20,971 nt of DNA. Origin: a virus. The notes under the pieces were generated by a model, which was given only the letters and a program-made list of their open reading frames with translations, was not told where the DNA came from and did no database searches. Location of the stretch: positions 1 to 20,971 of the IMG/VR virus record IMGVR_UViG_3300025889_001149. One strand, written 5' to 3'. Made by a program: the position numbers and the translations under genes. Shown here one piece after another: positions 8,899-20,438 of this stretch (positions are counted from its first letter, which is position 1; the number at the start of each line of letters is the position of its first letter).

Positions 8899-9372
8899 TT
8901 AATTTTTTAAGCATAATGATGAAATATGCTGAAATGATAAATTATACATTTCTGCTATTTCTTTTAATTTTTTGCCACCTTTTCTTAAAGCTAATATTTC
9001 TTCTTTTTGATAATCTTTTATTTTAGCATTAGGGTTTAATTCACCTTTATTTTTAGCTAATCCCATATTTGTTGCATGAATCATATTTTCACTATGTGTA
9101 ACCCATTCTAAATTAGATATATGATTATTTTTTTTATTTCCATCAATATGATTTACACACCTTTTATTTAAAGGATTTGGTATATAATATTGAGCGACCA
9201 ATCTATGTACTTTTCTGCCAAAATACTTTTTACCAAAATAAAAATTTAAAACCATATAACCATCTTTATCTATTTGGTTTTTCATTTTCTTAAGTCCATT
9301 GTTGGTTAATTTATATATATCACCATATTCGGTTATTTTATATAAACCATCAAATTCTAATACATCTTTCAT
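8899..9372 (-). CDS. Free-standing HNH homing endonuclease (NUMOD4/HNH_3)
   Basis: The 157-residue protein has an N-terminal NUMOD4-like part (FDGLYKITEYGDIY, 7-20), the HNH_3 core (VHRLVA 55-60, VNHIDGNK 73-80, NLEW 87-90) and a C-terminal helix-turn-helix (about 119-157: KIKDYQKEEILALRKGG then IAEMYNLSFQHIS) of the type that binds DNA in such enzymes. It would nick or cut intron-less or variant alleles and spread itself. It is inserted between NinG and a small basic gene, with an ATGA overlap to NinG. It differs from the other two HNH genes here in its C-terminal module. Confidence 0.88.
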   Translation of the reverse strand: MKDVLEFDGLYKITEYGDIYKLTNNGLKKMKNQIDKDGYMVLNFYFGKKYFGRKVHRLVAQYYIPNPLNKRCVNHIDGNKKNNHISNLEWVTHSENMIHATNMGLAKNKGELNPNAKIKDYQKEEILALRKGGKKLKEIAEMYNLSFQHISSLCLKN

Positions 9373-11399: not shown

Positions 11400-12069
11400 T
11401 AAATTTTCCTTCCGTTAAGTCTCTAGCCATCCAGTTCTTTGCAGTAGCAATCCAATCCTTCTTTTTTTCGCCTTTAGAATCAGACCAATTTTTAATTACT
11501 TCAAAATAATAATTGAAGTTAGCAACTTCGTATTGAGTTCCAATAAAACATTGCTCAAATTTTTCTATGGTATTAACTTCACTATCTACAAAAAGTGTAG
11601 CGCTACTAACTTTCTTTTTATTTACTTTATTTTCCTTTTCTTTACTTTCCTTTACTTTGTTATTTTCTGTTATAACGTTGTTATCATTTGTTATAACATT
11701 TTTATTTTTCCATCTATTTTCCATACCTTTTTTACCAGCAAAAGATTTTAATTTTCTTTTTTCATCTTGTAATTCCTTATTGTATAAAACCCTTTCACTC
11801 CAATAAAATTCATTATCAGTAACAAATAAACCTATTTCAATACAACTGTTATAAAATGCGGTTAACTTTGTTATATCAATGTTAAGTTGATAGCAAATCC
11901 CACTAAATAATTTACATTTTAATTTTGAATCTTGACTTTGGTGCATTAATTCAATAAAATACCAATAAAGTCCATAACCTTCCATTCCATAAATTGAAAG
12001 TAAATACAAAATTTTTTCATCATTAGCAGCATTAAAATCGTGCTGAAAATAATATGATTTGTTGTGCAT
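11305..12069 (-). CDS. Replication initiator-like protein (Lin1244/DUF4373 N-domain)
   Basis: The 254-residue protein begins with YYFQHDFNAANDEKILYLLSIYGMEGYGLYWYFIELM (6-42), the signature of the Lin1244/Lin1753-like (DUF4373) winged-helix domain found in phage and plasmid initiators. SFAGKKGMENRWKNK (109-123) closes the conserved part. A Lys/Asn/Glu-rich linker (about 121-154) follows, then a C-terminal domain with YYFEVIKNWSDSKGEKKKDWIATAKNWMARDL (187-218), as in DnaD-like phage replication proteins. The linker DNA carries phased repeats that look like an origin. It is the first gene after a promoter and a structured leader, so it probably heads the replication operon. Confidence 0.82.
   Translation of the reverse strand: MHNKSYYFQHDFNAANDEKILYLLSIYGMEGYGLYWYFIELMHQSQDSKLKCKLFSGICYQLNIDITKLTAFYNSCIEIGLFVTDNEFYWSERVLYNKELQDEKRKLKSFAGKKGMENRWKNKNVITNDNNVITENNKVKESKEKENKVNKKKVSSATLFVDSEVNTIEKFEQCFIGTQYEVANFNYYFEVIKNWSDSKGEKKKDWIATAKNWMARDLTEGKFIDKNYNPNAKRINQNQQLSYAEREAIKRNSL
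11611..11694. other. Candidate replication origin inside initiator gene (phased repeats plus purine tract)
   Basis: On the minus strand ATAACA occurs at 11694-11689, 11684-11679, 11673-11668 and 11663-11658, at steps of 10, 11 and 10 bp. The first and third lie within the 8-bp palindrome GTTATAAC, 21 bp apart. Directly downstream, plus-strand bases 11611-11657 contain no G: 47 nt of T/C with a few A, including three TTTACTTT words. This is the lambda ori layout (repeats followed by an A+T-rich purine/pyrimidine tract inside the initiator gene). That it works as an origin is inference. Confidence 0.45.
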
Positions 12070-12080
12070 AAAATAAAAAA

Positions 12081-12160
12081 GGCTCTCGGCGTTCCCCCCA
12101 GTAGGATTGAGGGTTCAGCTTTGAGCCAATAAGTTTAGAATCGGATATCCTACATCCTGA
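12081..12160 (-). ncRNA. Structured leader RNA with kissing hairpin loops
   Basis: The minus-strand leader of the initiator gene folds, by eye, into two hairpins. Hairpin 1 (12157-12143) is GGAT, a 7-nt loop GTAGGAT, then ATCC. Hairpin 2 (12127-12081) has an outer stem GGCTC/GAGCC, a symmetric 9/9 internal loop, an inner stem CCCTC/GGGGG and the 9-nt loop AATCCTACT. The loop word ATCCTAC is the exact complement of the hairpin 1 loop, so a 7-bp kissing interaction is possible. Hairpin 2 runs into TTTTTTATTTT and then the ATG, so it could also act as an attenuator. No known riboswitch or ribozyme class is recognised. Confidence 0.6.
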
Positions 12161-13992: not shown

Positions 13993-14334
13993 TTATAAAA
14001 TTCTTTTTATTTCGTTTAATTCATCCTTTAAATCCGTATCGTAATGTAAACTCAACGTATTTTGGATGGTTTGCAAGGAATGAATAACTGTGGTGTGGTC
14101 TCTGCCTACAATATCCCCAATGGTCTTAAGTTTTAGCCTTGTATTGTTTTTAATAAGGTAAAGCGATATAAACCTTGCTTTTACGTTGTTTCTCTTACGG
14201 CTTTTGCCCTTGATGTCCTTTATTTCCATTTGGTAATAATCAGCCACCTTTTTGATAATGCCTTCAGCGTAATTAATCATTTCCTTCGTTGTTTGCTTGT
14301 TCTCCTTTTGGCTTGGTAGTGTCCAATAATTCAT
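13993..14334 (-). CDS. Orphan DnaA domain IV (DNA-binding domain) protein
   Basis: The 113-residue protein matches the DnaA C-terminal domain (PF08299): INYAEGIIKKVADYYQMEIKDIKGKSRKRNNVKARFISLYLI (20-61), KLKTIGDIVGRDHTTVIHSLQTI (68-90) with the GRDHTTV signature that contacts the DnaA box. The AAA+ ATPase part is absent. It may bind DnaA boxes in host or phage DNA, as an initiator accessory or a decoy. Met19 (14280) is an equally good start: it would leave an 8-base overlap with the upstream gene instead of 62. Domain identity is clear; the biological role is open. Confidence 0.85.
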   Translation of the reverse strand: MNYWTLPSQKENKQTTKEMINYAEGIIKKVADYYQMEIKDIKGKSRKRNNVKARFISLYLIKNNTRLKLKTIGDIVGRDHTTVIHSLQTIQNTLSLHYDTDLKDELNEIKRIL

Positions 14335-14757: not shown

Positions 14758-15222
14758 TTAAACGTAAATTAATGATGTTTTATTAGGACTAGAACCATTT
14801 AAATAATTTATTAATGTTGAATATTTAAATCCTAAAATTAATGAAGCATCTTTTGCATTTTCATAAAACACACCTGTTTTTAAATCAAGTATTATTTTGC
14901 CAAAATTTGATGGTTTTCTTAACCCAATTTTATATGCGTGTAAATTATTTTCACTTGATGTTGACCATTCTAAATTTTCTACTCTATTATCAGTTTTAAT
15001 GCCGTTTATATGATTTACATTTTTTTTGTTTTGGCTATTATTAATAAATGCTTCAGCAACCAATCTATGTATTTTATATGTTTTAATTTTATTTTTATTA
15101 CATAAACTAACTCTATAATAACCATTACTTGATAAAGATGGTTTTAATTCTTTATTTTTTTTATTATTTATAACTGTACCATCTTTGGTAACGTTATAAT
15201 TCGGATAATTTTTAATTTGCAT
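14758..15222 (-). CDS. HNH homing endonuclease with C-terminal DNA-binding module (paralogue 1)
   Basis: The 154-residue protein has the N-terminal [13 protein letters not shown] strand pair (5-17), the HNH core (IHRLVAEAF 51-59, VNHINGIK 69-76, NLEW 83-86) and a C-terminal NUMOD1-like part ([25 protein letters not shown], 119-143). It is a close paralogue of the enzyme at 19974-20438, including the shared ending PNKTxLIY. The gene is visibly richer in A+T than its neighbours, consistent with horizontal spread. It is inserted between the ribbon-helix-helix gene and the 99-residue gene. Confidence 0.88.
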
Positions 15223-19973: not shown

Positions 19974-20438
19974 TTAAGCGTAAATTAATGTTGTTTTATT
20001 TGGGTATGTATTTGTTAAATATCCGTGTAAAGTTTTCATATTTACATTATAATATTTAGCTGCTTCAGTTACTGAATCATAAAAAATACCTGTTGCGGTA
20101 TCTAGCACAATTCTTGTTACACTTGGCTTTTTTAATCCTGTATCAAATGCGTGTTGTATATTTTGACTTGCAGTAACCCATTCAAGATTTTCAATCCTAT
20201 TATCGGTTTTTATTCCGTTAATATGATTAACCATTTTATAGTTATTCACATTATCAATATAAGCCTCTGCAACTAACCTATGTATTGTGTAGTTTTTATA
20301 TTTTAAATCTTTACATAATACAACTTGCATATATCCTCTTGAATTACTACAAGGAGTTAATTTTCTATTAAATCTTAAACTCCATACTTCGCCATCTTTT
20401 GTTATAGCGTAATTTGGATAATTAGGAATTGGCTTCAT
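19974..20438 (-). CDS. HNH homing endonuclease with C-terminal DNA-binding module (paralogue 2)
   Basis: The 154-residue protein matches the enzyme at 14758-15222 over its whole length: NYPNYAITKDGEVWSL (6-21), IHRLVAEAY (52-60), [12 protein letters not shown] (70-81), NLEW (84-87), then a NUMOD1-like end (FYDSVTEAAKYYNVNMKTLHGYL, 119-141) and PNKTTLIYA. It probably cuts alleles lacking the insertion. The C-terminal part differs most from its paralogue, which fits different target sites. It is inserted between a small TM protein and the 128-residue gene. Confidence 0.88.
   Translation of the reverse strand: MKPIPNYPNYAITKDGEVWSLRFNRKLTPCSNSRGYMQVVLCKDLKYKNYTIHRLVAEAYIDNVNNYKMVNHINGIKTDNRIENLEWVTASQNIQHAFDTGLKKPSVTRIVLDTATGIFYDSVTEAAKYYNVNMKTLHGYLTNTYPNKTTLIYA

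Follow-up and report, generated by a model that had tools for sequence, protein, structure and literature searches.

A kissing-loop leader RNA ahead of replication initiator genes in phages of probable Bacteroidetes hosts

In plasmid ColE1, RNA I and RNA II kiss through loops of about 7 nt, and this loop-loop pairing controls the replication primer. In phages, the put RNA of HK022 consists of two hairpins at the start of an early transcript and antiterminates, while the replication gene 32 of T4 has a structured leader (a pseudoknot) that is bound by the gene's own product. The antisense attenuators of plasmids pT181 and pIP501 use kissing loops of about 7 nt in initiator control, together with a terminator hairpin in the leader (PMC3753616). 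In the cobalamin (corrinoid) riboswitch, the L5-L13 kiss is intramolecular, pairing an upstream loop with the loop of a downstream hairpin, and it controls a terminator or ribosome-site hairpin; in one corrinoid riboswitch, P13 is stabilised by the kissing loop, which thereby favours formation of the terminator hairpin (PMC10653944).

The leader described here, a control RNA of about 90 nt that is apparently undescribed, resembles the cobalamin riboswitch in that its kiss involves the hairpin that would serve as the expression platform. It differs in having no aptamer and no Rfam match, in consisting of only two hairpins with the first at +1, in that the kissed hairpin itself bears a U-run and adjoins the AUG, and in being found in phages before replication genes. 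A B12 aptamer core is absent, and there is no room for one because the predicted transcript starts at hairpin 1. Loop size, initiator control and a terminator-like leader hairpin are shared with the plasmid attenuators, but the partner loop of the leader lies in cis in the same RNA, and no signal of an antisense TAnnTTTG promoter was seen.

The window is a virus record of 20,971 bases, and the leader RNA lies on its minus strand (12158-12070), where two hairpins carry fully complementary loops of 7 nt (12153-12147 and 12107-12101), exactly as the initial annotation had placed them. Read 5′ to 3′ on the minus strand, the order is a promoter element TATATTTG, hairpin 1, a linker, hairpin 2, TTTTTTATTTT, and the ATG at 12069. 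The promoter noticed earlier is thus present (12170-12163, minus strand) and is of the Bacteroidetes -7 type (TAnnTTTG), not sigma-70, as judged from its sequence, its family-wide presence, and the published consensus, in which the G is numbered -5 (PMC6847099, PMC9723704). Counted from this G, transcription is predicted to start at the A at 12158 (minus strand). Hairpin 1 (GGAT-GTAGGAT-ATCC; 12157-12143, minus strand) forms the 5′ end of the RNA from +2; across the leaders its stem pairs are 100% paired and 3 of 4 covary. Its loop, GTAGGAT, kisses loop 2, ATCCTAC. The linker GATTCTAAACTTATT (12142-12128, minus strand) contains AAACTTATT in the window, and alignment columns 32-39 are conserved at 82-98%; AACTTATT is conserved in the close family and absent in diverged subtypes, and L022 and L157 have a small hairpin in place of the linker.

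Hairpin 2 (12127-12081, minus strand; MFE -18.1 kcal/mol) is composed of an outer stem GGCTC/GAGCC, a 3x3 loop, a 2-bp GC/GC segment, a 4x4 loop, and an inner stem CCCTCA/TGGGGG, and all 13 of its pairs covary in the family. What had been described as a symmetric 9/9 internal loop therefore contains two covarying base pairs between its smaller loops, and the striking G6 run is indeed present, in the 3′ arm. The U-run TTTTTTATTTT (12080-12070, minus strand) separates hairpin 2 from the start codon, and a run of this kind is specific to the leaders among gene starts. The gene that follows (12069-11305, minus strand) encodes 254 amino acids (Pfam PF14297 Lin1244_N; PHROG 2562, replication initiation protein), a Lin1244-type initiator with similarity to the replication initiation proteins of phages. 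The folding energy of the whole window leader is unremarkable (z -1.24), and chance therefore had to be excluded by comparison of leaders.

Relatives were gathered from viral contigs by protein searches, RNA-model searches, and DNA-pattern searches (including an exact DNA motif). The set is dominated by virus contigs from a single collection, many of them near-duplicates, and wherever possible it is distinct sequences that are counted. Relatives gathered by way of the initiator are biased towards that gene, a bias from which the pattern scans are free. When leaders are set side by side, both loops are seen to have changed together. In a first alignment of 13 leaders, 98.7% of cells are paired compared to 36-47% in slid controls. 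A covariance model (R1), built without the kissing pairs, matches leaders in most viral loci, and among 51 distinct model-aligned leaders 98.4% of cells pair, with changes on both sides at 21 of 24 pairs. The kiss is Watson-Crick in all 51, through 13 different 7-mers and without any G-U pair; 100% of its cells are paired, five of its seven pairs covary, and the remaining two are invariant in alignment A4. All leader stems covary as well.

Scans that are independent of the model gave the same picture. When two hairpins with complementary loops were sought ahead of 1656 ORF starts, 36 starts had a 7-nt kissing pair, every one of them the same leader type, while three dinucleotide-shuffled sets yielded 0 pairs of 7 nt and 0.67 of 6 nt per set. 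Four scans of the virus collection, in which the hairpin 2 stem was fixed and the 7 loop bases were free, returned 173 matches. Four of these are in unrelated sequence and one is in a contig that has lost both the promoter and hairpin 1; each of the remaining 168 has an exactly complementary upstream loop. As distinct leaders, this amounts to 111 of 111, and with loops taken from other leaders as a control, 0 of 10298 matched. Among near-identical leaders the kiss has changed 55 times on both sides and 0 times on one side; L013 and L128, for example, are 98.6% identical outside the loops and differ in three kissing pairs. These scans and the two-sided-only changes place the kiss under direct selection. 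The covariation between the loops, which the initial annotation had named as decisive, is thus found, and the kissing-loop leader that it proposed ahead of the replication initiator is strongly supported, from these alignments, as a real RNA that is far from chance.

The loops do not in general evolve faster than the stems (55 changes in 714 kissing pairs compared to 141 in 1734 stem pairs); the changes are merely clustered. All 51 aligned leaders have nUnnnAn loops, but the form is not universal, as the pattern scan also contains the loops GGACGAG and GTCGTTT. The sole leader found without a matching hairpin 1 is that of L331, identical with L051 (IMGVR_UViG_3300008107_001361), in which the promoter is missing and the upstream gene extends into the 3′ arm of hairpin 1, the result of a natural deletion or of faulty assembly.

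TAnnTTTG stands ahead of hairpin 1 in 48 of 52 leaders aligned by covariance model and in 106 of 107 found by pattern. In the 107 leaders that extend far enough upstream, the 4-bp hairpin 1 core begins at the predicted +1 (50 leaders), +2 (50), or +3 (6), with a similar result for the model-aligned leaders, and the transcript is accordingly predicted to begin with hairpin 1. G-U pairs occur in the stems of aligned leaders, including that of hairpin 2, and together with the position of hairpin 1 at this promoter they point to a sense-strand RNA. A function as a DNA hairpin or origin is less likely given the G-U asymmetry and the coupling to +1. The promoter type and the start context suggest that the phages carrying the leader, all of them uncultivated, probably infect Bacteroidetes.

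A hairpin at +1 to +3, in a leader of two-hairpin shape that always stands at the operon head, would also suit a positive element, that is, a 5′-terminal RNA cap that shields the mRNA or, like HK022 put, works on RNA polymerase and allows full transcription of the long replication operon. This reading is doubtful, as it leaves the U-run and the fixed distance to the AUG unexplained; put shares the two hairpins but is not known to have a loop-loop pair or a U-run at a start codon.

The internal loop of hairpin 2 had been proposed as the natural ligand or protein site, a proposal that comparison does not bear out. The internal loops resemble a non-canonical helix (A-G, G-A); their letters vary, and wobble and Watson-Crick pairs take their place in L019 and L122. 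In four diverged leaders the internal loop is gone and the kiss is kept: GTGGTAG/CTACCAC in L022, CTACGAA/TTCGTAG in L157 (which has an extra hairpin), GTACGAAC/GTTCGTAC in L198, and CCGACA/TGTCGG in L206. These leaders and that of L205 were missed by the model or differ in linker and loops; they belong to more distant initiators and were identified by eye, with less certainty than the members of the main family. In all five, promoter, hairpin 1, kiss, hairpin 2, U-rich run, and ATG recur, and this retained core suggests that the kiss, the U-run, and closeness to the AUG matter rather than a ligand pocket. A possible, diverged relative (L182:906-995; GAGCAG/CTGCTC), with only a weak model match, precedes a DnaG-DnaB primase-helicase gene.

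A riboswitch that senses a ligand or protein at the internal loop, or autogenous repression by the initiator, is for such reasons very improbable. High conservation of AACUUAUU in the linker and of one A (column 80) in the close family would speak for it, and the T4 gene 32 pseudoknot is a precedent for autogenous control. The diverged subtypes, however, lose linker and loops and retain the kiss, and the type of leader does not track the controlled protein, since scaffolds and proteins are shuffled. The initiators of L018 and L019 are 98% identical and have different leaders, and identical leaders, or identical hairpin 2 stems, precede unrelated proteins. The initiator is therefore unlikely to be the ligand, and compared to gene 32 the leaders described here are exchanged between unrelated genes.

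The leader stands at the head of a replication operon, once in nearly every phage and twice, with different loops, in a few. The initiator families behind it are Lin1244_N, DUF1376-like, HTH_36/DnaD-like, and others without a Pfam name; when the first gene is HNH-like, GIY-YIG, T5orf172, or methylase-like, the next gene is the probable initiator in nearly all listed cases. These arrangements mark the leader as a module that is exchanged at the operon head and swaps freely between initiator families. What comparison demonstrates to be conserved across the family is architecture and not detail, namely the two hairpins, the kiss, a sense-strand RNA with a predicted +1 start, the U-run, a fixed distance to the AUG, and the place at the operon head.

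Small HNH-like or GIY-YIG endonuclease genes lie exactly between leader and initiator in L402, L403, L405, L362, L423, and others, and the gene after such an endonuclease mostly overlaps it by 8-17 nt. Intronless homing at the leader-initiator site could explain the exchange of leaders. Second leaders, with loop letters that differ from those of the first, are found at L128:4618-4712, L139:3934-4028, and L092:1660-1753, and they precede NUMOD4/HNH genes (L128, L139) or a GNAT-like protein. Three related free-standing genes scattered over the minus strand of the window (8899-9372, 14758-15222, and 19974-20438) are of the HNH endonuclease type by sequence resemblance. A small phage protein encoded upstream of the replication genes (13993-14334, minus strand) has, of DnaA, only the DNA-binding domain (Bac_DnaA_C, E 3.5e-22).

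The kissing loops also invite comparison with plasmid copy control (ColE1, pT181), in which the leader would be the target of a trans or antisense RNA. The loops are fully paired over 7 nt, mostly fit nUnnnAn and so resemble fast-pairing U-turn loops, and their letters diversify. This possibility is nevertheless extremely unlikely, as every leader contains the partner loop within its own RNA. Antisense promoters of the TAnnTTTG type show no excess across the stretch of leader plus 200 nt (0.27 per leader compared to 0.25 expected), and extra copies of GTAGGAT that might be targets in trans are not enriched in the window. A distinctly improbable proposal is that the leader is a ligand-free RNA device whose own loop-loop pair is the sole sensor and carries a phage-specific "loop code". 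It draws on the concerted jumps by which loops change on otherwise unchanged scaffolds (e.g., L013/L128), as in plasmid incompatibility loops. If it were true, the short terminated leaders made by one phage could affect, in trans, a co-infecting phage that shares its code, and a difference in code would separate phages from each other, or the two leaders of a single phage.

The sequence between hairpin 2 and the start codon sets the leaders apart from other genes. At least 9 T in the 12 bases before the ATG are present at 25 of the 896 distinct gene starts from viral loci and at none of the other 871, and all 25 belong to leaders of the kissing type (those of L022 and L025 included); other gene starts in these loci are A-rich. 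The U-run begins directly after the final base pair of hairpin 2, and in 49 of 51 leaders its first 8 nt include at least 6 T. The ATG lies 8-12 nt past the stem. From the end of the inner stem to the AUG, the distance is a near-constant 22-25 nt where the true start is taken. In some class I/II leaders the 3′ arm of hairpin 2 contains an in-frame ATG (e.g., L002:1469, L027:3029), so that gene callers may start the initiator too early; the window has ACG there.

A stable hairpin followed directly by a U-run is the form of an intrinsic terminator, and hairpin 2 has it even though internal loops are present. Its energy is -14.5 to -24 kcal/mol in six examples. By the d'Aubenton-Carafa score, with the kiss left out, the window hairpin passes (d = 16.9), as do 34 of 51 leaders, with 17 of 51 below threshold. 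Hairpin 2 has non-canonical segments near its base, and a simple shuffle-based terminator scan does not list it owing to the internal loops. The initial annotation had foreseen a switch between termination or occlusion and expression. The terminator-like hairpin adjoining the start codon agrees with that proposal in shape and makes termination or occlusion plausible, the function itself being what we infer; a switch between two folds finds no counterpart, as no alternative or antiterminator helix has support across the 51 leaders. A gate of this kind would thus lack an obvious built-in "on" state.

It has been observed that F. johnsoniae prefers starts with A at -3 and an open region from -20 to +20 (PMC6847099). 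Both preferences are violated at the start region of the leaders, and the U-run must therefore pay for something else, an argument for a gate by termination. A rival reading is purely translational, in that the kissed hairpin 2 occludes the start region and the U-run is a landing pad for ribosomal protein S1, without real termination; the lower half of hairpin 2 would melt on 30S binding, with the kissed core outside the 30S footprint. The U-run before the AUG could indeed be an S1 site, which would count against a terminator. In favour of the translational reading, the inner stem ends just beyond the ribosome footprint, no Shine-Dalgarno (SD) sequence is used, and in F. johnsoniae initiation is tuned by structure around the start codon (PMC6847099). 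In the phages, however, A-rich starts are preferred, and a U-run directly after the stem is the arrangement of terminators, so that this alternative is considered possible but rather unlikely.

The preferred reading, to which we give a probability of roughly 0.55, is that the leader is a cis-acting gate in which the kiss stabilises the terminator-shaped hairpin adjoining the start codon. Transcription would start at the foot of hairpin 1, which would fold at once. As the top of hairpin 2 leaves the polymerase, loop 2 would pair with loop 1 to give a pre-formed kissed core, and with the polymerase positioned on the U-run, the lower half of hairpin 2 would then zip up. The result would have the shape of an intrinsic terminator whose last U lies beside the AUG. 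In read-through transcripts, the kissed hairpin 2 would cover the ribosome landing zone. In this manner the leader may limit or delay, in cis, the initiator and the downstream operon, with the kiss as the lock. Termination or occlusion, the split between them, a kiss that strengthens rather than opens hairpin 2, and a trigger, if any, are the parts of this scheme that we infer. Decisions at start-codon pause sites are known (PMC5234074).

The leader family is present in more than 150 virus contigs. The earlier remark that no Rfam class is recognisable is confirmed: the window has no match in Rfam 15 at gathering score, the leader alone at E<=10 gives only chance matches 21 to 88 bits under gathering scores, and 19 loci including diverged members give one tRNA match, outside the leaders. 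This match (L022:2422-2529) is stretched over 108 bases, a possible insertion, and is not called by ARAGORN. Direct DNA comparison with sequenced phages yielded no leader. Among relatives of the initiator in the phage collection, the nearest two from Bacteroidetes are those of Flavobacterium phage 1/32 and a Porphyromonas phage, in which the gene is preceded by annotated gaps of -1 and 61 nt. A search with R1 of 80 cellular-genome loci with an initiator homologue found 0 leaders, as did model R2 in 395 Bacteroidota genomes, weak evidence given its stricter filters and lack of a positive control.

This leader family is widespread and absent from Rfam, and the covariation of its tertiary pair is close to perfect. 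Its place is the replication switch point in phages of probable Bacteroidetes hosts, phages that use no SD signal and in which little is known about the timing of gene expression. In this family the kissing loop stands alone as a regulatory part, free of any aptamer, so that natural compensatory variants can be used to ask whether kissing strengthens a terminator or start-site hairpin or blocks it. The leaders may also supply orthogonal RNA parts for Bacteroidetes.
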